A DNA stretch of 42,326 bases, taken from Gemmatimonadota bacterium (GTDB lineage: Bacteria > Gemmatimonadota > Gemmatimonadetes > Gemmatimonadales > GWC2-71-9). Below are positions 1 through 16,211 of this stretch, piece by piece. Position 1 is the first letter of the stretch; every line of letters begins with the position of its first letter. Where the stretch lies: the NCBI GenBank assembly GCA_016199245.1, contig JACQHC010000134.1, positions 1-42,326 of the forward strand. Direction: 5' to 3'. The notes under the pieces were generated by a model. That model had not been told where the DNA came from. It did no database searches and saw only the letters and a program-made list of their open reading frames with translations. The position numbers and the translations under genes are program-made.

Positions 1-680
1 AGGAAGCGGTAGCCGGCGTAGGCCGCCACGATGCAGCCACCGAACACGGCGTTGGCGATCAGCCGGTGGATGATGATCGGCATCCAGGTGGCGTTGGCGA
101 GCGCGTTCCACAGCTGGACCTCGGACGGGAGCGTCGCGGGAGTGATCTCCGTGGGCGGGGACATCATGTACGTGAGCCATCCGTTCGCGATGAACATCAC
201 GATCGTGCCCCAGACGTTGAGCAGCACGCCCAGGCCCCAGTGGGCCCATTTCGTGCGGCCCGCTTTCCAGCGATCCCAGCCGTAGTAGTACAGGTAGAGC
301 GTGAAGGACTCCACGAAGAACAGGCTCACGTAGATCCACATGGACAGCCCGAAGATCTGCGCCATGTGGCCCCAGAACCGCGGGTACAGCGTGGTGAGCA
401 GGAACACGAGCATGACGCCCCACAGCGCCGTCGCGCTATAGGCGAACACGAGGAGGCGCGTGAACTCCTGGGACAGCCGGTCGTACTTGGCGTCTTTGCC
501 GACGATCCCGATCAGCTCGGTGATCACTGCGAACATGGGCACACCGAGCACGAACGCCGCGAACATGAGGTGCACTTCCGCGGCGACCCACACCGCGGCG
601 CGCGCCCCTATGACGGGGAACCGCCCATAGGCACCCGCGGTATCCGCGGCGGCCTGGACCAGGGAGGACAGCTCAGTCAC
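1..680 (-). CDS. Cytochrome bd-like quinol oxidase subunit I (3' end outside window)
   Basis: This is the N-terminal 226 residues of a polytopic membrane protein of the CydA family, which oxidises quinol and reduces O2 in the cytoplasmic membrane. Reading the minus strand from GTG at 680 gives the first CydA helix with a single His (H37, in EVHLMFAAFVLGVP), equivalent to E. coli H19. It is followed by FFVES (E124, like E107), the GWDR motif after that helix, an NGW motif, and H205 in IIIHRLIAN, like H186. At the position of E. coli Glu99 this protein has Ile116, so it is a bd-like rather than canonical enzyme. The start overlaps the stop of the radical SAM gene by 8 bases, implying translational coupling. 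The quinol loop and the remaining heme ligands lie beyond the window. The family call is firm by motif; heme content is unknown. Confidence 0.8.
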   Translation of the reverse strand, partial: MTELSSLVQAAADTAGAYGRFPVIGARAAVWVAAEVHLMFAAFVLGVPMFAVITELIGIVGKDAKYDRLSQEFTRLLVFAYSATALWGVMLVFLLTTLYPRFWGHMAQIFGLSMWIYVSLFFVESFTLYLYYYGWDRWKAGRTKWAHWGLGVLLNVWGTIVMFIANGWLTYMMSPPTEITPATLPSEVQLWNALANATWMPIIIHRLIANAVFGGCIVAAYAGYRF

Positions 681-1995
681 GGTCGGCGAAGAACGGCAGT
701 CGCTTGGAGAAGTCCACGGGCATGGCGCGGCGGACCTCCGTCATCAGTTCGACGGTCACCTCCGCGTGGCCATGCTTCATCGCGTATTCCTCGAGCCGAT
801 GGATCACGACGCCGCGCACGAACGACGGAATCTTCCTCAACCGCTCCTCCGCCCCGGCGGACCACGGCAGCCTGCGCTCCACCTGCGCCCCGTACGTGAC
901 GGGCCGCTTCGGTTCGATGACGGGACTGCCGGAGGGCTCGTACACGCAGCCGGGATCTTCCGCCAAGGGGTCGCCGGTATCGGCGAACGCGCGAGCCCGA
1001 CACCCGCCGCACAGGCCGCGGTACTCGCAGCGCCCACACCGCCCGCCCAGCTCACCCGACCGCAGCGAGCGGAACAGCTCCGAGTCCCGCCACACGCTCG
1101 CGAACGCCTCGCCCCGCAGGTCCCCCGCCACGGCCGGCAGATACGGGCACGGCGTCACCTTTCCATCGGGCGTAATGCGGCAGTACTGAACCCCACAGGG
1201 ACACCGTGTTTCGTAGTTGAGCATCGGTGAATCGGGCAGGGTAGCGTGGACGAGACGCATGAAGTGCGGGGCGCACTTGGCGCGCACCATCATGCGGCCC
1301 AAGTACTCCCGGTGATACGTCACCAGCTCAGCAAGCACCGCTTCGTAGTCGGCGGCGGAGAGATCGGACAGGCGAGCACCGCGACCTGTGGGCACGAGGA
1401 AGTACGCGTTGAAGCACACCGCACCCTGCTCCGCCGCCCAGGCCACCAGGCTCCCCAGCTCCCGGCGGTTGCCCTTCGTCACCGTCGTCTGGATAACGAA
1501 GTCCACGCGGTGGCGCCGCAGCCGCTCCAGCGCCTCGGTCGTGGCAACCAGGGCGCCCGAACCGTGCCGGAAGTTGTCGTGATGCCGCGGCTCGAGTGAA
1601 TCCACGCTCACCGCGAACCCCGTCACCCCGGCGTCCACGAGCTCGGCCACCCGCTCGTCGGTGAGCCTGGTCCCGTTGGTGCCGACCACGACGGTGGCGC
1701 CGCGGCGTGACGCGTGCCGCGCGATGGCCGCGAGATCGGGCCGCAGCAGGGGCTCGCCCCCGGAGAGGATGAACAGGGGCGCCGGATTGAGCGCCAGGAT
1801 CTCGTCCGCGATCCGGACGCACTCCTCCGTCGCCAGCTCGTCCGTGGCGCCTTCCTCGGGCCCCGCGGAGATGTAGCAGTGGGCGCACTCGAGGTTGCAC
1901 CGCCGAGTGAGGTTCCACGCCACCACGTGCGGCACGTAGTCGGCCGGCGTGGCGGCACGCGCCGGAGCTTCCGCCAGCAACTGCGACGCGGCCAT
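673..1995 (-). CDS. Radical SAM/SPASM protein with C-terminal PCP_red domain
   Basis: A 440-residue cytoplasmic Fe-S enzyme. The radical SAM motif CNLECAHC gives C33, C37 and C40 for the SAM-binding 4Fe-4S cluster, and SGGEPL follows at 78-83. A Cys-rich SPASM-type region (C241, C265, C267, C272, C283, C320, C323, C329, C332, C350) should hold auxiliary clusters. Its CPYLP segment recalls the NirJ/AhbD type of heme-modifying radical SAM proteins. Residues 378-425 form a PCP_red domain (WSAGAEERLRKIPSFVRG), normally seen at the end of BchB. I chose ATG at 1995, 8 bases after the preceding stop; a longer upstream reading frame runs inside the preceding gene and looks non-coding. The substrate is not evident. 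Heme or tetrapyrrole modification is an inference from the domain and from the downstream bd-like oxidase; peptide modification is the alternative. Confidence 0.85.
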   Translation of the reverse strand: MAASQLLAEAPARAATPADYVPHVVAWNLTRRCNLECAHCYISAGPEEGATDELATEECVRIADEILALNPAPLFILSGGEPLLRPDLAAIARHASRRGATVVVGTNGTRLTDERVAELVDAGVTGFAVSVDSLEPRHHDNFRHGSGALVATTEALERLRRHRVDFVIQTTVTKGNRRELGSLVAWAAEQGAVCFNAYFLVPTGRGARLSDLSAADYEAVLAELVTYHREYLGRMMVRAKCAPHFMRLVHATLPDSPMLNYETRCPCGVQYCRITPDGKVTPCPYLPAVAGDLRGEAFASVWRDSELFRSLRSGELGGRCGRCEYRGLCGGCRARAFADTGDPLAEDPGCVYEPSGSPVIEPKRPVTYGAQVERRLPWSAGAEERLRKIPSFVRGVVIHRLEEYAMKHGHAEVTVELMTEVRRAMPVDFSKRLPFFADRD

Positions 1996-2003
1996 CCCCA
2001 GGG

Positions 2004-4001
2004 TCAAACCGCGTCCTCCTGGCGCTCCGTCTGCGACTCGAGCAGCCGGGTCACGGCAGCCCTGGCCTCTTCGGGGGTCACGGTCTTGAAGTCCACGGGA
2101 CACTGCGCCATCTGGGCCTCGATATCCCGGATGGGGCACCGGGTGACACCTGAGGCCTTCGCCTCTTCGATGAACTGCCGCATCTCCGCTGAGAGCGCCG
2201 AGCCGCCTTCGGCCTCGGCCCGGATCTGCTTGGCGCGGAGCTCCTGGAACATCACCATCATGGTTTCCGCGTCGAACTCGTCCGCCTCGATCATCGCTTG
2301 CTTGTTGTCATCCATCACGGCGCTCGTGACGCGACCAATGGCGTGCCGCCGGGCGAACCGCTCCACGGTGTTCCGCGCCAGCGGACGTGCGATCAGCGGC
2401 ACGCGACCGAGGCGCTCCCAGGCCTCTTCGGTCCAGGCGATCGGATCGGTCTCGACCCGCGGCCGCTGGCTTACCCGGCCCGTCACCGGGCACCGCACTT
2501 CCACCATCCCATGGGCTGGCTCCGGGTCGTCGTCGTGGCCACGCACTCTGGTCGATTTGAGCTGCTCCTCAGCCTTCACCTCCGCGAGCGCGAGTTCCTC
2601 GGCGGACCCGATCCCCATGATCAGCTGCATGTGCGTGGGGAGCAGCTTGGAGATGGCCTCATCCAGCCAGCGGTTGGTTACGGTCGCGGGCTCGCCACCC
2701 GTTCGCTCGAGCACGTACTCCTCCACGGCCTTGCGCGCGATGCCCTGCGCGAACGGCGGGACGCGCAGGATGCGGACTTCGGCATCGGGCGCCCACGGCA
2801 GCCCCGCGACGCCGTCTTCCTCGATCCACGGGATGTCCTCGGGCCGCACCCCTTCCGTCCCAACCATCAGGGTGTTGCACGGCGCGAGGCGCATCAGGTT
2901 GTCCGCCTGCGACCCCATGTCCGTCCCCTCGATGCGATGCGCGCCGTGGCGCGCCAGCACGAGCAGGGACGGCCGGATCTCCTCCGCCCACTGCAGCACG
3001 ACCTGGAACGGCTTCCCGATCAGAATCTGGGTCGTGATCGGCACACCTGCGAACTGCTGCGCCATCACCGAAGCACGTTTGATGTTGGCCTGGCTCAGCT
3101 TCAGCAGGCCCTTGTCGATGATGTTGTTGTGGAGCTCCTCCTGCTCCTCGAACTTGAACACCTTGGTCGCCTGCACCGTGAGCACGTCCTTGATGTTGCG
3201 GAACACCACGTGGTGGTATTCCACGTCGAACGCGCTGCACACGTACAGGGAGGCCTCGAACGTCGTGGCCAGCTCGAGTGCCGCGCGCATGGCCTTGAAG
3301 CTGTAGGACGACCCGTCCACACACACCATGAACCGCCCGCCTGTGAGTGGCTGGTCGTTCCGAATCACGAGCACGTCTTTGGAGATGCCGCGCAGCGCCC
3401 GCGCGGTCACACCACCCAGCTGCGACGCGGGCTGGCGGCCCAGGCCGTGCGCCCCGATGACCACCAGGTCGTAACTGCGGCCCGAAGACCCGGCGATCTT
3501 GGCGGCGGCATCCTCCTCCTCGGCCACGATCCGCCCGTTGTCGCCAATCCGCACGTCGCTCCGCACCCGGGCGCCGCCGTCGTACGTGGCCGCCCGGTTG
3601 GGGTCGAACCCGATGAGCCCGGGCAGCCGCCCCGCGCCGCTGTTCACTTCCTTAATGATCTCTTCGTAATTGATCCCTTCGAGCAGCTGCCGCGTGAGGG
3701 GCACACCGGCGGTGGCGCAGCGCTGGGCGACCTGTTCCAGGAAGCTGTCCGCGATGAGCTGCAGGCCTTTCTCAATCAGCTTGTCGTGGATCTTGCGCTG
3801 GCGCTTGATCTCGTGCGGCGTCTGGAATTGCGCGGGCAGGCCCGTTTCCAGCTGGCGGAATCGCACGTCGTGCAGCCGGGCGGCGTACACGTGGTTGGCG
3901 GTGATGTGGCCGCTGGACGCGCGGCACAGCTCGAGGGCGCGCTCGACGGCCCAGTCGGAGTGCTGCGAGTTGTCCACCGGCACAAATACTTCCCGGTACA
4001 C
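2004..4001 (-). CDS. Tandem universal stress protein with two PCP_red domains
   Basis: A 665-residue soluble protein. Residues 1-215 and about 221-380 are two UspA folds. Each opens with the usual beta strand (YREVFVPVDNS; GRFMVCVDGS), and the first ends in an ATP-loop-like GAHGLGRQPASQLGG. Two PCP_red-like domains follow, at about 403-448 (PWAPDAEVRILRVPPFAQG) and 523-563 (WTEEAWERLGRVPLIARP). The C-terminal tail has a CPIRD...CPVDF pair (C622, C634) that could bind metal or a cluster. I prefer GTG at 4001 because GGAGGG stands 4 bases upstream and the protein then begins directly at the first Usp strand; GTG at 4028 is possible. About 150 bases separate it from the ferredoxin gene upstream. 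The domain combination is unusual; a scaffold or nucleotide-sensing role in cofactor handling is a guess. Confidence 0.8.
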   Translation of the reverse strand: MYREVFVPVDNSQHSDWAVERALELCRASSGHITANHVYAARLHDVRFRQLETGLPAQFQTPHEIKRQRKIHDKLIEKGLQLIADSFLEQVAQRCATAGVPLTRQLLEGINYEEIIKEVNSGAGRLPGLIGFDPNRAATYDGGARVRSDVRIGDNGRIVAEEEDAAAKIAGSSGRSYDLVVIGAHGLGRQPASQLGGVTARALRGISKDVLVIRNDQPLTGGRFMVCVDGSSYSFKAMRAALELATTFEASLYVCSAFDVEYHHVVFRNIKDVLTVQATKVFKFEEQEELHNNIIDKGLLKLSQANIKRASVMAQQFAGVPITTQILIGKPFQVVLQWAEEIRPSLLVLARHGAHRIEGTDMGSQADNLMRLAPCNTLMVGTEGVRPEDIPWIEEDGVAGLPWAPDAEVRILRVPPFAQGIARKAVEEYVLERTGGEPATVTNRWLDEAISKLLPTHMQLIMGIGSAEELALAEVKAEEQLKSTRVRGHDDDPEPAHGMVEVRCPVTGRVSQRPRVETDPIAWTEEAWERLGRVPLIARPLARNTVERFARRHAIGRVTSAVMDDNKQAMIEADEFDAETMMVMFQELRAKQIRAEAEGGSALSAEMRQFIEEAKASGVTRCPIRDIEAQMAQCPVDFKTVTPEEARAAVTRLLESQTERQEDAV

Positions 4002-4151
4002 GGCGCCCTCCGTCGAGGGGGGCCTCACCTCAACGCCGAACGGACGTTGAGACGAATCAAATGCACTTCGGGATCGACAGCAGCGCCGAAGGCTGAGAGG
4101 TGCGGAGGCCCGGCGTCAGGCGCGAAGATTGGGACGCGGGGCGCCCGGCTG

Positions 4152-4394
4152 TCAAGGGACCATTTGCCGCCCGTTCTCGTCCCACACCGTGAGCGCGTCC
4201 ACGGGACACGCGTCGCATGCCGTGAGCAGGCGCTCCCTGCCTGTCGTCTCGGGATTCACGAACGTCACCACGCCGTCATCTGCCAGCACAAAGGCCTCGG
4301 GGGCCTCGGTCGCGCAGTTCTCGAACCCCACGCATACCAGCCGATCGATGCGAATGCGAAGCCCGTCAACCGACCGCTCCTCGAAATCGGCCAT
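4152..4394 (-). CDS. Single-cluster ferredoxin
   Basis: An 80-residue small acidic ferredoxin, probably the electron donor for a neighbour such as the radical SAM enzyme. Cysteines are C21, C27, C60 and C63, the last followed by Pro as in classical cluster-binding CP motifs. The usual central cysteine of a CxxCxxC motif is replaced (F24), so a 3Fe-4S cluster, or a 4Fe-4S cluster with an unusual ligand, is expected. It resembles the short ferredoxins that accompany cytochromes P450, but no P450 is nearby. Its start codon overlaps the stop of the upstream gene (TAATG), so the two are translated together. Confidence 0.85.
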   Translation of the reverse strand: MADFEERSVDGLRIRIDRLVCVGFENCATEAPEAFVLADDGVVTFVNPETTGRERLLTACDACPVDALTVWDENGRQMVP

Positions 4395-4855
4395 TACATG
4401 CCCTCGAGTCCCAGGTCCGCGCGTGCCTGGTCCATCACGGCTGGCGTGATCTCCGCGATGCCCCGCTCGGCGGCGTAGTCGGCATAGATCTTCCGCACCA
4501 TGCCCCGAACGAAGCTCGGCACGCGGGCAAGACGGTCAATTGCCTCGGGCGACCAGGTGGGAGGCGATTGCAGATTGCGGGTTGCAGATTGCGGAGTGGA
4601 CGAGGCAGCTGCGAACGCGTCCGCGCGTCCCACGACGTTCTCCCGCACCAGCGCCATCGGCTCGGGATCGAGCGTGCGCCCGCCGATCTCCACACCGAGC
4701 GATCGGACGAGCTGCGACTCCATCGGGTTGGCCAACAGGGCGATCGTGTGGCCGCACCGGGCGCAGGTGAACGCCGCGGCGAACGTCCCGTCTCCCGGCT
4801 CGCGCCGCTCCTGAAACGTCATCTGCTCGTCGCAGTTCACACACAGGAATTTCAC
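4394..4855 (-). CDS. Zinc-ribbon protein with C-terminal PCP_red domain
   Basis: A 153-residue soluble protein. Two CxxC pairs (C5/C8 and C31/C34) make an N-terminal zinc ribbon, and residues 101-146 are a PCP_red domain nearly identical in pattern to that of the radical SAM neighbour (shared words RVPSFVRG and IPSFVRG). The linker at residues 87-99 is encoded by a 29-base run of ATTGCAG-type repeats that looks inserted in frame. It starts with GTG in a GTGA overlap with the Mrp-like gene upstream, and its TAA overlaps the ferredoxin start. No function can be named; the ribbon may dock nucleic acid, protein or a metal, while PCP_red points to tetrapyrrole handling. Confidence 0.75.
   Translation of the reverse strand: MKFLCVNCDEQMTFQERREPGDGTFAAAFTCARCGHTIALLANPMESQLVRSLGVEIGGRTLDPEPMALVRENVVGRADAFAAASSTPQSATRNLQSPPTWSPEAIDRLARVPSFVRGMVRKIYADYAAERGIAEITPAVMDQARADLGLEGM
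4566..4594. repeat. ATTGCAG-type tandem repeat inside a coding region
   Basis: A 29-base run built of GATTGCAGATTGCGGGTTGC and a second GCAGATTGCGG. It is lower in GC than the surrounding gene and similar in composition to the arms of the intergenic element at 36604-36728. It stays in frame with the zinc-ribbon/PCP_red protein and encodes part of the linker between its two domains. Confidence 0.6.
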
Positions 4856-5688
4856 GCCAGCGTCTCCAGGAAGCGGTCGAGCAACCCGGACGGCACTTCC
4901 ACGGCGCCGGCCGAGAACGGCACCTGCGCAAGCAGCGGCACACCGAAGTCCTCCGCCAAGCGGCTTCCCGCTGACCCCGGGAACAGCGGTTCAGTAGAGC
5001 CGCAGGACGGGCAGCGATATCCGCTCATGTTCTCGATCACGCCGAGCAGTCGAATGCCCGCGTCTTGCGCGGATGCCATGGCGCGGCGGACAGACTGGTA
5101 GGACTCGTCGGTCGGAAGCGTCACGCTGACGGCGCCCTTGAGGCTCGGCGCCAGCTCGGCCACGTCCGCGACGCCGTCGGCGCCGGGGGGCAGGTCGATC
5201 ACCAGGAGCTCCAGCGGCCCCCAGGCCACATCCGCCAAGAACTCACGCAGCACACCGGCTTCGAGTGCCCCGCGCCACACGAACCGCTCGTGCTCCGGCT
5301 CGCGCCAGCGGAGCGGTCGCCCGTCCGCGAGCAGGAAGTCCGTGGATATGACTCGGATGTTCTCATTACCAAGCGCCGGGCGAACGCCTTCGGGGCTGAG
5401 CGCCAGGGGCCCCGCAGCTCCCAGCAGCCGCGCGACGGTGGGGCTCTTGAGGTCAGCGTCCACCACGCCCACACCACGCGTGAGGCGACGGGCGAGGCCG
5501 AGTGCGAGCGCAGCGGTGAGGTAGCTCTTCCCCACACCGCCCTTTCCGCTCATCACCGCCACGACGTTCCGGATCTCCGCCAATCGCGCCGCCACACGCC
5601 GGCGCTGCTCACCCACCTGGGCGCCCAGGCGGGACCGGTCTTCACCCTCGACCTCGAAGTACGTCCGAAAGCTCGCGCCCTCACTCAC
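4852..5688 (-). CDS. Mrp/ApbC/NBP35-type P-loop ATPase
   Basis: A 278-residue cytoplasmic protein of the Mrp family, whose members carry and deliver Fe-S clusters (MinD/ParA-like deviant P-loop NTPases). The P loop is SGKGGVGKS at 47-55, with VVDADLKSP and IDLPPG following as the switch motifs. ENMSGYRCPSCGS gives the CxxC (C226, C229) that binds the bridging cluster at the dimer interface. The start is GTG at 5688, in a GTGA overlap with the upstream stop, preceded by GGTGGGA; an ATG at 5718 lies inside the upstream gene. It lacks the N-terminal DUF59 domain of many Mrp proteins. The context suggests it supplies clusters to the radical SAM protein and ferredoxin of this operon. Confidence 0.88.
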   Translation of the reverse strand: MSEGASFRTYFEVEGEDRSRLGAQVGEQRRRVAARLAEIRNVVAVMSGKGGVGKSYLTAALALGLARRLTRGVGVVDADLKSPTVARLLGAAGPLALSPEGVRPALGNENIRVISTDFLLADGRPLRWREPEHERFVWRGALEAGVLREFLADVAWGPLELLVIDLPPGADGVADVAELAPSLKGAVSVTLPTDESYQSVRRAMASAQDAGIRLLGVIENMSGYRCPSCGSTEPLFPGSAGSRLAEDFGVPLLAQVPFSAGAVEVPSGLLDRFLETLA

Positions 5689-6083
5689 AGGTCCCACCCA
5701 GCGCGCGCCAGCATCCACAGGTTGATCATCACCACGAGCAGCGCGACGCCATAAAACTCAGGGGACAGCCGCTGCACGGCAGTGGGCAAGAACGTGTGGC
5801 CGATGAGGGTGGGGACTCGGAGCGCGGCGATCACCCATACCACGCGTGCGACCCACACATTCTGCCAGCGCCACAGGCCCCACATCACCGCAGCCACGAT
5901 CACCGCACCCACCATCATCCACAGCCATCCCGCGCCTCGCCCTTCGGGCAGCAGGTCGCGGCGCCACATGGCGAACGTGGCGCCCTCGTAGAGAATCCCC
6001 ACGTGGAGGTACACGAAGGCCGCCTGGCGGAACTTCCGGGCGCGGGCCTCGGGCCAGCGCGCCGCTGCTTCTGGAGAAGTCAT
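5685..6083 (-). CDS. Small four-helix membrane protein
   Basis: A 132-residue protein with four hydrophobic segments at about 18-40, 52-73, 76-98 and 110-130 and a basic N-terminus (PEARARKFRQ), so the N-terminus is probably cytoplasmic. Histidines H27 and H96 fall in or near helices and could bind heme, but no known family is recognised. It is the first gene of the minus-strand cluster and overlaps the Mrp-like gene by GTGA. I used ATG at 6083; the longer open frame upstream would run through the divergent gene and is rejected. Confidence 0.65.
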   Translation of the reverse strand: MTSPEAAARWPEARARKFRQAAFVYLHVGILYEGATFAMWRRDLLPEGRGAGWLWMMVGAVIVAAVMWGLWRWQNVWVARVVWVIAALRVPTLIGHTFLPTAVQRLSPEFYGVALLVVMINLWMLARAGWDL

Positions 6084-6134
6084 TGATTCGGTTGACCTCC
6101 GCGCGTGAGCGCGCCTACTCTCCTCAGGAATCAG

Positions 6135-6752
6135 ATGGCTGACAGCGATCATCACGCGCCCGTCAGGCCCGCCTCTGCCCGGGCTCCGCTGCTGCTTACA
6201 GCAGGCTTCGTCCTGTTTGTCGGCGTGCTCGCGGCACTGGTAGGCGCGGCCTTCGCGCGTCGCCACGTGCCAACGTACGCCCCGTCTCTCGCGCTCGAAA
6301 GACCTACCCCCTCGAGCCTCACAACGGACACCGTCACGATCGACGCCCGGGACCCGGTGACGTGGCGCTACTTCAGCTTCGCTCGCGGCGTGCTGCCGTC
6401 CGCCGATACCGCCGGCTGGGACCTGGCGTTTCGGCGCTTCCAGGTCATCGTGGCGGGAGCCGTCGCCGCCGACAGCGCGGGCGAGTTCGAACAGCTCCGA
6501 GAGGCTTCCCTCACGGGCTACACCCAAACCGTGTTCGGGTCGGACACCGTCCATCCCACCATCGATCGATGGTATCGCTACAGCTACATCACGCACCTGC
6601 TCACGCCCGGCACGCCAATCTACGTGGTACGAACGGCGGCCGGGCGCTACGCTAAGCTCGCATTCTTGAGCTACTACTGCCCGGGTCCCGCGCCGGGGTG
6701 CGTGACCTTTCAGTACACATACCGGCCGGACGGCGGGCGACTATTTCAGTGA
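6135..6752 (+). CDS. HmuY-like heme-binding protein, membrane-anchored
   Basis: A 205-residue protein with one N-terminal membrane segment (about 17-40) and an extracytoplasmic domain like the HmuY family, which binds heme at the cell surface in Bacteroidetes. Family-like features are TWRYFSF, the WDLAFRRFQV strand, a YVVRTAAGRYAKLAF strand and a final FQYTYRP strand. A CPGPAPGC pair could form a disulfide. ATG at 6135 has AGGA 5 bases upstream and is preferred to GTG at 6105. It is divergent from the PCP_red/bd-like cluster, with about 50 bases between the two start codons, so the two units probably share a regulatory region. Heme binding here is inferred from fold family and context. Confidence 0.65.
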   Translation: MADSDHHAPVRPASARAPLLLTAGFVLFVGVLAALVGAAFARRHVPTYAPSLALERPTPSSLTTDTVTIDARDPVTWRYFSFARGVLPSADTAGWDLAFRRFQVIVAGAVAADSAGEFEQLREASLTGYTQTVFGSDTVHPTIDRWYRYSYITHLLTPGTPIYVVRTAAGRYAKLAFLSYYCPGPAPGCVTFQYTYRPDGGRLFQ

Positions 6753-11474: not shown

Positions 11475-11543
11475 AGGCGTAAGAGGTAAGGGGTAAGAGG
11501 TAAGGGGCGGGGGGGACCCCTTACCCCTCACGCCTTACGCTTC
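11475..11543. repeat. GGTAAG-type two-arm repeat between convergent genes
   Basis: The left arm (11475-11515) is a run of GTAAGAGGTAAGGGGTAAGA words ending in a G tract. The right arm (11516-11543) is the inverse, ACCCCTTACCCCTCACGCCT. The arms can pair into a long hairpin between the ADOP permease and CtaG stops and may terminate both transcripts. The TAA stop of CtaG lies inside the right arm. The same words and layout recur at 32430-32528. Confidence 0.7.
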
Positions 11544-12377
11544 TTCCTCCCTCTCCTCGTGGGACCAGCGAAACCACACGGCCGTCATCGCCGACCAGAA
11601 CACCAGCATCCCCGGCACCCACATGATGAGCCCGCCAATCCGCTGATCCTCCAGCGGATCGAGGCCGAACAGACGGGGGACGGTTACGTAGAACTCATAC
11701 AGCGGATGATCGGCCAGCGTGATAAAGGCGCCGATCAGCGACATCGGCAGGCCCAGGGCGAACAGGTAGAGCAGCTGCATGGGCCGCGACACGCGCGGCA
11801 GGCGCTCCGTGGGCGAGAGCACCGGCCACCACAACATCCCCGCCGTCACCATCATGGTGAGATGCATCACGATGTGGACGTTGTGGCGCTCCATGGCGAG
11901 GCCGTAGGGACCTGGGAAGTGCCATGCCGCAAGCACGGCGTTAGGCACCACAAACGCGACCAACGGCCGTGTCAGGAACCGCGCAACGGTGAGCACGCGG
12001 TGGTCGCGCGTTGCGTTGTCCACCATCCACCCTGACAACCCCGCGAGAAACAGCGGCGGCACGAGCAGCGTGAGCAGCAGGTGCTGCACCATGTGCGCGC
12101 TGAACAGATACTCGTCGCTCAGGTGGTGCAGCGGACCGTTGAGCGCGCCCAGGATGACGAGCAGCGAGCCCGCGTACGCAACGACCTGGCGAGGCGCCAC
12201 TTCCGGCGCTTGCAGACGCCGGCGGACAGGTCCGGCAAACCAGGCGTACACGGCACCGAGCGCGAGAACGCCGATGACGGTGCTGGGATGCAGGTCCCAG
12301 TCCGTCCAGGAGAACTCTGGTGTTTGGGCGATCAAGACGGTCGGGGTCGCCAGGAAGTCAACGAGGGAACGAAGCAA
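11535..12377 (-). CDS. ctaG: Cytochrome c oxidase assembly factor CtaG (caa3 type)
   Basis: A 280-residue protein with about seven membrane helices. The pattern typical of the caa3_CtaG family is present: HMVQHLLLTLLVPPLFLAG, then FVVPNAVLAAWHFPGPY, HLTMMVTAGMLWWPVL and a charged C-terminus. Bacillus CtaG is needed to form active caa3 oxidase, probably at the copper-insertion stage. It is the last gene of the oxidase operon, 87 bases after subunit IV, with a strong hairpin between. The start is uncertain: TTG at 12377 with GGAAGGG just upstream is used. Its TAA comes from a repeat arm. Confidence 0.88.
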   Translation of the reverse strand: MLRSLVDFLATPTVLIAQTPEFSWTDWDLHPSTVIGVLALGAVYAWFAGPVRRRLQAPEVAPRQVVAYAGSLLVILGALNGPLHHLSDEYLFSAHMVQHLLLTLLVPPLFLAGLSGWMVDNATRDHRVLTVARFLTRPLVAFVVPNAVLAAWHFPGPYGLAMERHNVHIVMHLTMMVTAGMLWWPVLSPTERLPRVSRPMQLLYLFALGLPMSLIGAFITLADHPLYEFYVTVPRLFGLDPLEDQRIGGLIMWVPGMLVFWSAMTAVWFRWSHEEREEEA

Positions 12378-12410
12378 CCCTTCCGCCTCGCCCGGCGGGT
12401 GCGGCCGGGA

Positions 12411-12468
12411 GTGAGAGGGGACGCTCCGCGCGGAGCGGGAACCGCGCAGCGGGTCCGCCCGGTCTCAC
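12411..12468. promoter_or_regulatory. Hairpin inside the oxidase operon (subunit IV / CtaG spacer)
   Basis: A perfect 16-base palindrome (CGCTCCGCGCGGAGCG, 12422-12437) lies within outer arms GTGAGA (12411-12416) and TCTCAC (12463-12468). The subunit IV stop (12465-12467) lies in the outer arm. Without a following T tract it may act as an mRNA stabiliser or partial attenuator that sets the CtaG level below that of the structural subunits. Confidence 0.45.
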
Positions 12469-12776
12469 CCCCGCACAAACGCCCCGTACAGAAACAGCAA
12501 GGCGATCGCCACACCGAGCGCCAGCAGCAACGGCAGGCTGAAGATCAGCGTGAACAGCTTGCTGTCCGACTTGAGGTGCATGTAGAACATCACCACGAGG
12601 GCGAACTTCGTGGCCGACAACGTGATCAGCACGGGCGCCAGCACCGCCTTGAACGCCGGCACGTAGAACACCCCGACCTCGACCAGCGTGATGATGGTCA
12701 ACACGGCGGCCACGGCCAGGTACGTGCCCGTGCCGGGATGGGCGTGCTGCGAAGCGGCGTCCTGGTCGCTCACCAT
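12465..12776 (-). CDS. ctaF: Cytochrome c oxidase subunit IV
   Basis: A 103-residue membrane protein of the bacterial COX4_pro family. Three hydrophobic segments are visible (about 18-38, 44-66, 74-99), and the family hallmark SATKFALVVMFYMHLKSDSK lies in the second and its loop. It stabilises the subunit I/III core of caa3 oxidases and has no cofactor. It follows subunit III by 7 bases in the same operon. ATG at 12776 is used; GTG one codon in is equally possible. Confidence 0.9.
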   Translation of the reverse strand: MVSDQDAASQHAHPGTGTYLAVAAVLTIITLVEVGVFYVPAFKAVLAPVLITLSATKFALVVMFYMHLKSDSKLFTLIFSLPLLLALGVAIALLFLYGAFVRG

Positions 12777-12783
12777 GCGCTCG

Positions 12784-13359
12784 TCACTGAAGGAGGTACA
12801 CGACCGTGAAGATCACGATCCACACGACGTCTACGAAGTGCCAGTACAGCCCCGCGATCTCGACGTTCAGCGCCTTGTCGGGCCCGAGCTTCCCCTGGAA
12901 CGACCGCACGAGCAGCGTCAGCAGCCACACGACGCCCACGGCCACGTGCCCGCCGTGGAAGCCGGTGAGCGTGAAGAACGTGGACCCGAACAGATTGGTC
13001 GTGATCGTGAGACCTTCATGCACGAAGGACGTGAACTCGTACGCCTGGAACCCCAGGAACACGAGGCCGAGGAACGCCGTGGCGGCAAGCCACACGCGGG
13101 CCCACACGCGGTCGCCCCGCGCCACGGCGGCGAGCGCCAGGACCATGGCCAGGCTCGACATCAACAGGTCGAACGTGCTCACCGACGTCACGGGGATGTT
13201 GAGAATCTCGTGCGGCGTGGGCCCCCGGACGCTGCGGCCCTTGTACACCAGGTAGGTCGAGATCAGCGAGCCGAACAGCAGGCACTCGGAGCCGATGAAC
13301 GTCCAGAACGCGAGCTTTCGGCTGTCGAGCCCGGTGCTGGTCACGTGCGCGTGCGTCAC
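12784..13359 (-). CDS. ctaE: Cytochrome c oxidase subunit III
   Basis: A 191-residue, five-helix subunit III, the short form usual for caa3 oxidases. Family motifs include KLAFWTFIGSECLLFGSLIS at the first helix, FTLTGFHGGHVAVGV (the HG-H helix), and GLYWHFVDVVWIVIFTVVYL at the C-terminus. It supports proton uptake and stability of subunit I in the membrane. The GTG start immediately follows the subunit I stop (TGAGTG). Confidence 0.95.
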   Translation of the reverse strand: MTHAHVTSTGLDSRKLAFWTFIGSECLLFGSLISTYLVYKGRSVRGPTPHEILNIPVTSVSTFDLLMSSLAMVLALAAVARGDRVWARVWLAATAFLGLVFLGFQAYEFTSFVHEGLTITTNLFGSTFFTLTGFHGGHVAVGVVWLLTLLVRSFQGKLGPDKALNVEIAGLYWHFVDVVWIVIFTVVYLLQ

Positions 13360-15183
13360 TCAGACCTCGAAGGGCTCGAACGCCCAGGCGTAAATGGCGA
13401 CGACGAGGACCGCGGCCCCCGCCAGCACGACCCACAGCGTATGGAGCAGCGCGCCCGTCGCCAGCACACCGATCCCGAGCGCGGCAATGACGGGCCAGAA
13501 CGAGCCGCCCGGCACGTGCACCGGCTCCGGCGGCACGTCGGGGATCGCGCGCATCTGGGTGCGGGACCAGCGCGGCAGGCGGCTCACCACTTCCGGAATC
13601 ACCGAGAAGTTGTACGCCGGCGGCGGCGAGGAGATCGTCCACTCCAGCGACGGCGCCCCCCAGGGATCGTTCCCGGCGGTCTCGCCGTGGCGCAGGCTCC
13701 ACCACGCGTTGGCGGCGAACACGAGGATCGAGACGCCGATCAGCAGCGCGCCGATAGTAGAGACGAGATTCAGGCTGTCGAGGCCCAGCTCGGGGCCGTA
13801 GGTGTAGATCCGCCGCGGCATGCCCAGCAGCCCGATGAAATGCATCGGGAAGAACGCCAGGTTCATTCCGACGAAACCGAGCCAGAAATGCGTCTTCCCC
13901 AGGCGCTCGTTCATCAGCCGGCCCGTCATCTTGGGCCACCAGTAATAGATCCCCGCGAAGATGCCCTGGATGGCGCCGCCGAACAGCACGTAATGGATGT
14001 GGGCCACGACGAAGTAGGTGTCCGTCTGCTGCAGGTCCGCGGGCGGCGAGGCGTGCATGACGCCGGACAGCCCGCCGATCACGAACATGGCGATGAATCC
14101 GAGCGCGAACAGCATGGCCGTCGTGAAGCGCAGCTGGCCGCCCCACATCGTCGCCAGCCAGTTGAAAATCTTCACACCCGTGGGGATCGCAATGAGCATC
14201 GTCGTGCCGGCGAAGACCGAATCCGGAATGGGCCCCAGGCCCACGGAGAACATGTGGTGGCTCCACACGCCCCAGCCCATCACGCCGATGAGTAATCCCG
14301 AGTACACCACGACCGCGTAGCCGAACAACGGCTTGCGCGAGAACGTGGGCAGGACCTCCGAGACGATCCCCATCGGCGGCAGGATGAGGATGTAGACCTC
14401 CGGGTGTCCGAACAGCCAGAACAGGTGCTGCCACAGCAGCAGGTCTCCGCCCGCCGAAACCTGATAGAAGTTCGTCCCGAAGAACCGGTCGAACATCAGG
14501 AACACGAGCCCGATCGTGATCACGGGGAACGCGGTGACGACCAGGAACTGGGTCACCAGCGTCATCCACGTGAACACCGGCAGCCGCATGAGGCGCATGC
14601 CGGGGGCCCGCAGATTGACGATCGTGACGATGAAGTTGAACCCGGCGGCGAGTGACGCGATCCCGAGCACTTGCAGGCCGAGCACCCAGAAATCGACGTT
14701 GAACCCGGGCGAGTACGCCCGGGACGTGAGATTGGCGTAGCCGAACCACCCGGCGTCGGGGGCTACGCTCAGCGAATCGGCGCCCAGGATCGGCCCGGCG
14801 ATGAAGCTCGCGTTGAGGAACAGGCCGCCGAACAGGAACACCCAGTAGCTGAACGCGTTGAGCCGCGGGAACGCCACGTCGCGAGCGCCGATTTGCAGGG
14901 GCACGATGTAATTGAAAAACGCCGCTGACAACGGCATGACCGCGAGGAACACCATAGTCGTGCCGTGCATGGTGAACAGCTGGTTGAACGTCTCGGCGCT
15001 CACCAGATCGTTCTGCGAGGACGCGAGCTGGAGCCGGATCAGCAGCGCCTCCAGCCCGCCGATCAGGAAGAACACGAAGGCTGTGACGCCGTACAGGATC
15101 CCGATCCGCTTGTGATCGGTCGTCGTGATCCAGCTCCAGATTCCCGAGCGGGCGCCGGCGGCCGGGGCAACGTGCTCGGCCAT
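13360..15183 (-). CDS. ctaD: Cytochrome c oxidase subunit I
   Basis: A 607-residue catalytic subunit of an A-type heme-copper oxidase, reducing O2 and pumping protons. Ligands visible are H73 (low-spin heme, TMHGTTMVF), H260 (CuB) with cross-linkable Y264 and proton-channel E262 in GHPEVYILILPP, H309-H310 (CuB, SHHMFSVG), K338 of the K channel, and H395 and H397 in VVAHIHYVLFGG (a3 and a hemes). The length includes extra C-terminal helices, as in caa3 enzymes. It starts at ATG 15183, 2 bases after the subunit II stop. Together with subunits II, III, IV and CtaG it makes a complete caa3 locus; heme A synthesis genes are not in the window. Confidence 0.97.
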   Translation of the reverse strand: MAEHVAPAAGARSGIWSWITTTDHKRIGILYGVTAFVFFLIGGLEALLIRLQLASSQNDLVSAETFNQLFTMHGTTMVFLAVMPLSAAFFNYIVPLQIGARDVAFPRLNAFSYWVFLFGGLFLNASFIAGPILGADSLSVAPDAGWFGYANLTSRAYSPGFNVDFWVLGLQVLGIASLAAGFNFIVTIVNLRAPGMRLMRLPVFTWMTLVTQFLVVTAFPVITIGLVFLMFDRFFGTNFYQVSAGGDLLLWQHLFWLFGHPEVYILILPPMGIVSEVLPTFSRKPLFGYAVVVYSGLLIGVMGWGVWSHHMFSVGLGPIPDSVFAGTTMLIAIPTGVKIFNWLATMWGGQLRFTTAMLFALGFIAMFVIGGLSGVMHASPPADLQQTDTYFVVAHIHYVLFGGAIQGIFAGIYYWWPKMTGRLMNERLGKTHFWLGFVGMNLAFFPMHFIGLLGMPRRIYTYGPELGLDSLNLVSTIGALLIGVSILVFAANAWWSLRHGETAGNDPWGAPSLEWTISSPPPAYNFSVIPEVVSRLPRWSRTQMRAIPDVPPEPVHVPGGSFWPVIAALGIGVLATGALLHTLWVVLAGAAVLVVAIYAWAFEPFEV

Positions 15184-15185
15184 GC

Positions 15186-16211
15186 CTATCTCAGCAGCTG
15201 GAGATACGCCACGAGCGCGGCGATCTCGTCTTCAGTGAGGCCGATGCGCGGCATCTTGCTTCCCGGCTTCTCGGCCGGCGGATCGCGCAGCCAGCGGGCC
15301 AGGCCCTCCGCCGTGTTGGGGAGCGCACCGGCCGCGACGGTGGAGCGGCTCCCCATGTGGGTGAGGTTGGGCCCCAGCACGCCACCGGAAACGCCCTGCA
15401 CGGTGTGACACGCGATGCACGAGTTGCTCGCCGGGTCGCGAATCAGCCGGAACGCTTCCCAGCCCCGCCGCGCGAGATCCGGCAGCGTGTCGGCGCTCGG
15501 CGGAGCGGCACGTTGTCCCGCCACCCATTGGGTGAACGTGACGGAGTCGTCCACGAAGACTCGGAGCCCCATCTTGGCATGAGACTCGCCGCAGAATTCC
15601 GCGCATTGTCCCAGGAACACGCCGGCCGAGTCCGCCGTGAAGCTGATGCGGTTGGTCCGGCCGGCGATGACGTCGCGCTTCCCACCCAGGCGCGGCGCCC
15701 AGAAGCTGTGGATCACGTCCCGGGAGGTCAGGCGCAGGCTCACCGGCCGCCCCTGCGGCACGTGCAGCTCGTTCGCCGTGGTGATGCCGAGCTCGGGATA
15801 GTTGTACTCCCACCACCACTGGTGACCGATGACGTCCACCTCGAGCGCGCCTTCGGGCGGCGTGCCGTCGGTGCGGAAGATCGTCTGCATGGTAGGCGCG
15901 GCGATGAGGATCAGGATCACCGCCGGCACCAGCGTCCACCCGATCTCCAGCAGCGTGTTGCCGTGCACACGCTCGGGCTCCGGCGCGCCGGGCCGGGCGC
16001 GGTAGCGGACCACCACAAACAGCAGGAGGGATTCGACCACGACGAACACGCCGACGGCGAACCAGAAGATCCAGCGGAACAGCTCATCGATGTGCGAGCC
16101 GAAATCCGCCGCGGGGTCGAGCGTCGACTGCGGGTAGGGCCCTCCGCAGGCGACGGCCCCCAGCATGAGGGCGCCCAGAGCGAGCGCCGTCAGCGTTCGC
16201 ACGTGCGCCAA
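15186..16211 (-). CDS. ctaC: Cytochrome c oxidase subunit II with fused cytochrome c (caa3)
   Basis: A 341-residue lipoprotein-type subunit II. The signal ends at the lipobox VAC (C22), followed by two helices (about 46-69 and 91-109). The CuA cupredoxin domain has H168, C203, E205, C207, H211 and M214 (CAEFCGESHAKM), and the quinol-oxidase-type loss of these ligands is not seen. A C-terminal class I cytochrome c carries CIACH (C265, C268, H269) with M320 as likely sixth ligand. Electrons from soluble or membrane cytochrome c enter here. It is the first gene of the operon. The start is TTG at 16211 with AGAGG 4 bases upstream. Confidence 0.95.
   Translation of the reverse strand: MAHVRTLTALALGALMLGAVACGGPYPQSTLDPAADFGSHIDELFRWIFWFAVGVFVVVESLLLFVVVRYRARPGAPEPERVHGNTLLEIGWTLVPAVILILIAAPTMQTIFRTDGTPPEGALEVDVIGHQWWWEYNYPELGITTANELHVPQGRPVSLRLTSRDVIHSFWAPRLGGKRDVIAGRTNRISFTADSAGVFLGQCAEFCGESHAKMGLRVFVDDSVTFTQWVAGQRAAPPSADTLPDLARRGWEAFRLIRDPASNSCIACHTVQGVSGGVLGPNLTHMGSRSTVAAGALPNTAEGLARWLRDPPAEKPGSKMPRIGLTEDEIAALVAYLQLLR

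Follow-up and report, generated by a model that had tools for sequence, protein, structure and literature searches.

Membrane proteins resembling the CydA subunit of cytochrome bd have been described in Nitrospira, Nitrospina and anammox bacteria and, in the accessible parts of these reports, their genes lie beside those of mono- and diheme cytochromes c, an alternative NxrC and cupredoxins (PMC3578206; PMC6606698; PMC8026999). The OR-N family of the cytochrome bd superfamily is, as far as its description is accessible, presumed to use cytochrome c (PMC10839748; the family also appears in PMC12342949). Papers on nitrifiers and anammox bacteria describe these bd-like OR-N complexes as enigmatic, with cofactors and a reaction yet to be established. 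Here, we analyse an operon that joins a CydA-like gene to genes for three proteins with the PCP_red domain, one of which is a radical S-adenosylmethionine (SAM) enzyme. It lies at the start of a 42,326-nt contig of a Gemmatimonadota bacterium (JACQHC010000134.1, contig C106 in our numbering; this whole stretch is referred to as the window), whose genome is incomplete (2.58 Mb, 67% complete). In bacteria of soil and groundwater that are not photosynthetic, the PCP_red gene set nearly always accompanies the bd-like complex, and the coupling of the two is near-certain; a role of the set in tailoring a heme for that complex is proposed tentatively.

PCP_red (PF08369) is a domain of 45 residues found in BchB/ChlB of the dark-operative protochlorophyllide reductase (PDB 2kru, 2xdq, 3aek), and has been used as a marker of phototrophy (PMC12815261). 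The proteins of the operon share this domain but, unlike BchB/ChlB, hold only the C-terminal part, with no nitrogenase-like core and no BchL or BchN: PCP_red was the sole BchB part recognized by Pfam in the three proteins, which matched neither the BchB core nor its BchN/BchL partners. Despite its use as a marker, PF08369 is widespread in genomes showing no BchB-type PCP_red. No non-photosynthetic role of the domain was found in the open-access literature, and a search for relatives of the Usp-PCP_red protein on plasmids returned plain Usp proteins only.

Co-occurrence of the PCP_red set and the CydA-like gene

A first reading of the window, made from the sequence only, had linked its PCP_red proteins to the CydA-like subunit, and genome comparison bears this out. 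Neighbourhoods were counted for the 80 best relatives of the radical SAM protein in GTDB contigs: the CydA-like gene follows on the same strand at all 77 loci with downstream sequence left, the contig ending at the radical SAM gene itself in the remaining three. Among 298 Gemmatimonadota genomes, 79 have both the set and the CydA-like gene, 3 the set only, 1 the CydA-like gene only and 215 neither (Fisher's test, 2e-67), while the corresponding numbers for 95 genomes of a second phylum, that of Rokubacterium, are 57, 7, 2 and 29 (1e-15); kinship inflates both values, and bch-type and cluster-type PCP_red were sorted by the number and size of matches in hand-transcribed lists. In a sample of 61 relatives, the 15 genomes with the CydA-like gene all have the PCP_red set, which is found in 18. 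The bch-type PCP_red domains are located elsewhere, and rarely occur in genomes with the CydA-like gene, so that the absence of a link to photosynthesis, as first supposed, also stands. The four Gemmatimonadota exceptions are a contig that ends before the CydA gene (G036), a fragmented cluster (G280), a divergent variant (G041) and a CydA-like module at a contig end (G353). The PCP_red sets of two of them (L048 on G041:C1, and L204/L205 in G280) are divergent, and no CydA-like gene was found in these genomes.

The relatives of the window share a common gene order. Genes for a small membrane protein (not always present), an Mrp-type ATPase, a zinc ribbon/PCP_red protein, a ferredoxin, a Usp-Usp-PCP_red-PCP_red protein and the radical SAM/PCP_red enzyme precede the CydA-like gene; two cytochromes c, a cytochrome c/EB_dh protein, a cupredoxin-like protein, CoxB, CoxA and CoxC are encoded after it. 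The cupredoxin-like label is our reading of a CNVHGWM motif, where Pfam gives only a CarboxypepD_reg-like domain. The gene set recurs at roughly 50-80% identity across dozens of genomes and is thus not a product of chance.

In the second phylum, where most of the radical SAM proteins share only 41-49% identity with that of the window, the genes are reshuffled. One order is CydA-cyt c-cyt c/EB_dh-cupredoxin-CoxB-CoxA-CtaA-CtaB-CoxC-Cox4-Usp-rSAM-Mrp (rSAM, radical SAM; cyt c, cytochrome c); another is Usp-rSAM-Mrp-zinc ribbon-CydA-cyt c, without Cox genes nearby (L184/L185). That the set stays intact despite this reshuffling argues that its members are functionally tied, an argument independent of p-values, which shared ancestry inflates, and the loci without nearby Cox genes indicate that it is the bd-like/cytochrome c module, not the Cox genes, that consistently accompanies it. 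One contig assigned to Rokubacterium (L135) encodes a radical SAM protein 70% identical to that of the window, against 41-49% in most of its phylum; transfer between phyla and a misplaced contig are candidate explanations.

The CydA-like protein and its partners

To characterize the CydA-like protein, 70 of its sequences were compared with ten canonical CydA of relatives. All 70 retain the residues at the positions of His19, Glu107 and His186. In contrast, those of Glu99 and Glu445, ligands of the di-heme site, are Tyr and Leu in every sequence, and those of the quinol-site residues Lys252 and Glu257 are Met/Leu and Met, again in 70/70. The canonical proteins keep Glu99, Glu257, Met393 and Glu445 in 10/10 cases and Lys252 in 8/10. 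The positions of the heme d/b595 site, as assigned in the E. coli enzyme, are not retained in the CydA-like protein. The profile alignment between the two groups is secure in the N-terminal half (E 2e-18) and its confident part includes the Lys252/Glu257 region; for the C-terminal half it gives no confident alignment, so that the statement on Glu445, as well as the probable replacement of Met393 in 70/70 sequences, rests partly on MAFFT. Within the less certainly aligned Glu445 region, no Glu occurs in the helix preceding RQHW.

The predicted model of the CydA-like protein (predicted local distance difference test, pLDDT, 75) has 13 long helices and no Q-loop, unlike canonical CydA with its 9 helices. 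Its fold is nonetheless that of CydA, the only significant Foldseek matches being CydA chains of solved bd oxidases (E 1e-8). No CydB-like gene was found among the Pfam-scanned neighbours. The loss of the quinol-site and di-heme residues, together with the likeness to the bd-like proteins of nitrifiers and anammox bacteria and to OR-N proteins, indicates that, judged from its sequence, the CydA-like protein is not a bd quinol oxidase; with these replacements, no CydB and an operon that runs into cytochrome c and aa3 oxidase genes, a canonical bd oxidase is not supported, and the "bd-like oxidase" of the sequence-only reading has to be revised accordingly. Features of an OR-N-type protein, namely homology to CydA, no quinol site and a presumed cytochrome c partner, are present.

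As far as their accessible descriptions go, the bd-like proteins of Nitrospira, Nitrospina and anammox bacteria match the protein found here (PMC3578206; PMC6606698; PMC8026999). The clusters differ in that an aa3 oxidase follows here, with no nitrite oxidoreductase beside it in annotated loci, and that the operon also has genes for PCP_red, radical SAM, Usp and Mrp proteins, none of which are mentioned in the accessible parts of these reports. One of the described clusters includes a "putative zinc finger" protein.

A role of the CydA-like module as a substitute for a missing complex III was considered and rejected: genes of NrfD type (alternative complex III-like) are present in 60/61 genomes, and cytochrome b is equally frequent with and without the set. 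At two loci there is another CydA-like gene, divergent (about 50% identical) and with a cytochrome c module of its own (L111:2124-9000 and L203:4101-12789), which in L111 lies upstream of the Usp-PCP_red gene.

The radical SAM enzyme and a possible heme-tailoring pathway

Among radical SAM-SPASM enzymes of tetrapyrrole synthesis, AhbD acts on coproheme, decarboxylating two propionates, and NirJ cleaves off two propionates, in the pathways to heme b and heme d1, respectively (PMC7242693). The radical SAM protein of the operon resembles AhbD, NirJ, NirJ2 and TIGR04053 in its radical SAM and SPASM domains with their full set of cysteines, a CX3CX2C motif and nine further Cys being invariant in 28/28 sequences. 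Its best models are NirJ2 (295 bits), AhbD (293 bits, over its whole length) and TIGR04053 (260 bits), and all 28 members scanned match these heme-making families, whereas models of peptide maturases score lower (mycofactocin 145 bits, PqqE 98 bits). An enzyme of the tetrapyrrole type, as already suspected from the window, is thus suggested by the profile scores, every one of which is below its equivalog cut-off. The protein differs from the known families in its C-terminal PCP_red domain, which the AlphaFold2 model (pLDDT 84, predicted template modelling score 0.85) shows as three helices at 381-425, in its scores of 295 and 293 bits for NirJ2 and AhbD against a cut-off of 500, and in a locus at which no other siroheme-pathway or nir genes were seen. 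On a plasmid of Thermus thermophilus JL-18, the gene immediately after that of a nitrite reductase belongs to TIGR04053 (L199:8974-10101), a placement that would fit a part in heme d1 formation, and its product is a candidate NirJ-like enzyme of heme d1 synthesis.

The reading that we favour, while holding it tentatively, gives the products of the PCP_red set a dedicated task in maturation: they would modify a heme, which need not be a chlorin, for use in a bd-like (OR-N-like) electron-transfer complex of the membrane. Besides the CydA-like protein, this complex would include two cytochromes c (a diheme and a membrane-bound one), a cytochrome c/heme-b protein resembling alternative NxrC, and the cupredoxin-like protein, and its electrons would go towards the aa3 cytochrome c oxidase. 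Membrane segments are absent from the Mrp, ferredoxin, Usp, zinc-ribbon and radical SAM proteins, which hence resemble assembly factors of the cytoplasm more than subunits of a respiratory complex; they could form an assembly line there that tailors the heme. Most likely, the radical SAM enzyme would alter side chains of coproheme or heme b, iron porphyrins that the HemE/HemH/HemQ pathway would provide, while Mrp would provide its iron-sulfur clusters and the ferredoxin its electrons. PCP_red, common to the radical SAM, Usp and zinc-ribbon proteins, may serve as a tetrapyrrole-handling or ligand-binding module, or as one by which these proteins dock to each other. From gene linkage to heme chemistry the step is one that we infer, and so are the heme product, its placement in the CydA-like protein and the accessory roles.

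The genomic context agrees with such a supply of porphyrin: in G024, the Cox genes are closely followed by hemE, hemH and hemQ, and genomes with the set have HemQ-family genes more often than those without (counts below). There (L152), the operon continues into ctaB (heme o synthase), a hemQ-Rieske fusion, a gene of HemE size and hemH, while G018 (L151) has hemQ and then hemE and hemH proper. The fusion (L152:8785-9897), between ctaB and hemH, joins a HemQ-family protein to a Rieske [2Fe-2S] domain.

Several points weigh against this reading. The scores are so far below the AhbD and NirJ2 cut-offs that the substrate may differ, to go by these models. Among the matches listed, the structures closest to the radical SAM model are those of PqqE and of peptide maturases (SkfB, SuiB and anSME), with no AhbD or NirJ structure in the list. 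In the gene tree, which includes several uncertain rows and two non-homologous ones, two clades of PCP_red radical SAM proteins and TIGR04053 form an unresolved trifurcation with an unresolved root. Finally, we know of no citable case in which PCP_red alone is a proven tetrapyrrole binder.

An alternative that we regard as unlikely takes the radical SAM enzyme for a heme b synthase independent of oxygen, i.e., an AhbD-like coproheme decarboxylase backing up HemQ, in which case the complex would contain ordinary heme b and the operon would secure its supply. The match to AhbD across its whole length and the hem genes adjoining the locus in G024 speak for it. However, HemQ-family genes are already present in 14/18 genomes with the set, the presence of the set goes with that of the CydA-like gene instead of the heme pathway (79/3/1/215, see above), and a plain heme b synthase would need neither four PCP_red domains nor the Usp and zinc-ribbon proteins. 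Simple replacement of HemQ by the radical SAM enzyme was rejected, since genomes with the set have HemQ more often than the others do (14/18, compared with 10/43 of the 61 relatives without it).

It is a little less probable again that the enzyme is a protein maturase, acting on the CydA-like protein or a partner cytochrome, whose residues it would modify or cross-link. SPASM enzymes are often peptide modifiers, the best structural matches are those listed above, and the gene precedes the CydA-like gene in 77/77 loci, but the tetrapyrrole models far outscore those for mycofactocin and PqqE.

Synthesis of heme d, or of another chlorin, for an oxygen-reducing bd-type oxidase, along the lines of the special heme (perhaps a chlorin) supposed in the sequence-only reading, is very improbable. 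BchB does end in a PCP_red domain and belongs to a complex that produces a chlorin, and the CydA-like protein keeps the positions of His19, Glu107 and His186. Against this stand the replacement of Glu99, Lys252, Glu257 and Glu445, the missing CydB, and an operon with the small C-terminal domain only and no BchN/BchB-type reductase core. Moreover, genomes with canonical CydA mostly do without the set, which is present in 3/22 of them compared with 15/39 of those lacking canonical CydA (61 relatives), and among 14 control genomes CydA occurs in 10 and PCP_red in Synechococcus only; PCP_red is thus not part of general heme d synthesis. A chlorin is possible, nothing favouring it over other heme modifications.

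Most improbable is an insertion of iron-sulfur clusters into the respiratory complex, since the Mrp-type carrier and ferredoxin that suggest it are explained by the radical SAM enzyme's own clusters, the CydA-like alignment has no invariant Cys, and the cytochrome c proteins (one locus checked) hold little beyond heme-binding CXXCH motifs.

To return to heme tailoring, a wider and rather doubtful extension is that PCP_red proteins and a NirJ/AhbD-type radical SAM enzyme form an undescribed pathway to a non-standard heme, the hallmark cofactor of OR-N-like complexes and possibly of those of nitrite oxidizers and anammox bacteria as well. A maturation set that tracks the bd-like complex through two phyla would offer a direct handle on its cofactor.

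The operon in the window and its surroundings

The seven minus-strand genes and their domains, as first read from the window, were recovered by Pfam and a check of open reading frames. Farthest upstream, with an ATG start near 6083, is the gene of a small membrane protein (5685..6083; 132 residues, three hydrophobic segments, no family), which has homologues at 23/80 radical SAM loci. It is followed by those of the Mrp/NBP35-type iron-sulfur carrier ATPase (4852..5718; GKGGVGKS and CPSC motifs; PF10609, 181 bits; MrpORP, 189 bits), the zinc ribbon (CxxC...CxxC)/PCP_red protein (4394..4855; PF08369, 56 bits; matching the BchB C-terminus and 2kru in the PDB) and a single-cluster ferredoxin with four Cys (4152..4394; Fer4_13 in Pfam). 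The Usp-Usp-PCP_red-PCP_red gene (2004..4028; PF00582, 98 bits; PF08369, 62 bits) probably starts at a GTG near 3998. The radical SAM/SPASM/PCP_red gene (673..2000) encodes about 441 residues; an extended N-terminus of its reading frame (about 2000-2139) overlaps the Usp gene, the true start being near 2000. Last comes the CydA-like (OR-N-like) membrane cytochrome gene (3..680; PF01654, 69 bits), with its N-terminal 226 codons. A profile search of the source genome found four PCP_red domains, every one in this operon (57, 54, 46 and 29 bits, the last below the cut-off).

Coupling of these genes by overlaps, proposed at the outset for most junctions, is real between the Mrp and zinc-ribbon genes (GCGTGAAA), the zinc-ribbon and ferredoxin genes (TAATG) and the radical SAM and CydA-like genes (GTGACTGA), but not between the ferredoxin and Usp genes, which lie about 120-155 nt apart, according to which start codon is taken.

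The CydA-like gene is truncated by the contig end. Another contig of the same genome (G000:C168) shares 149 bp (98.7% identity) with the start of the window and holds the remainder of the gene, also on the minus strand (L201:3829-4983). As seen by tblastn, a diheme cytochrome c, a membrane cytochrome c, a cytochrome c/EB_dh (NxrC-type) heme-b protein and a cupredoxin-like protein are encoded after it.

Divergently from the operon, the window encodes a protein with an HmuY domain, a heme-binding protein family (6105-6752, plus strand), and a gene of this kind lies at the same place in L035, L039 and L047. The window also contains a separate, second cytochrome c oxidase operon of caa3 type (11535-16211, minus strand), encoding CoxB with a cytochrome c domain, CoxA, CoxC, Cox4 and CtaG, which is additional to the aa3 genes found after the bd-like module in relatives.

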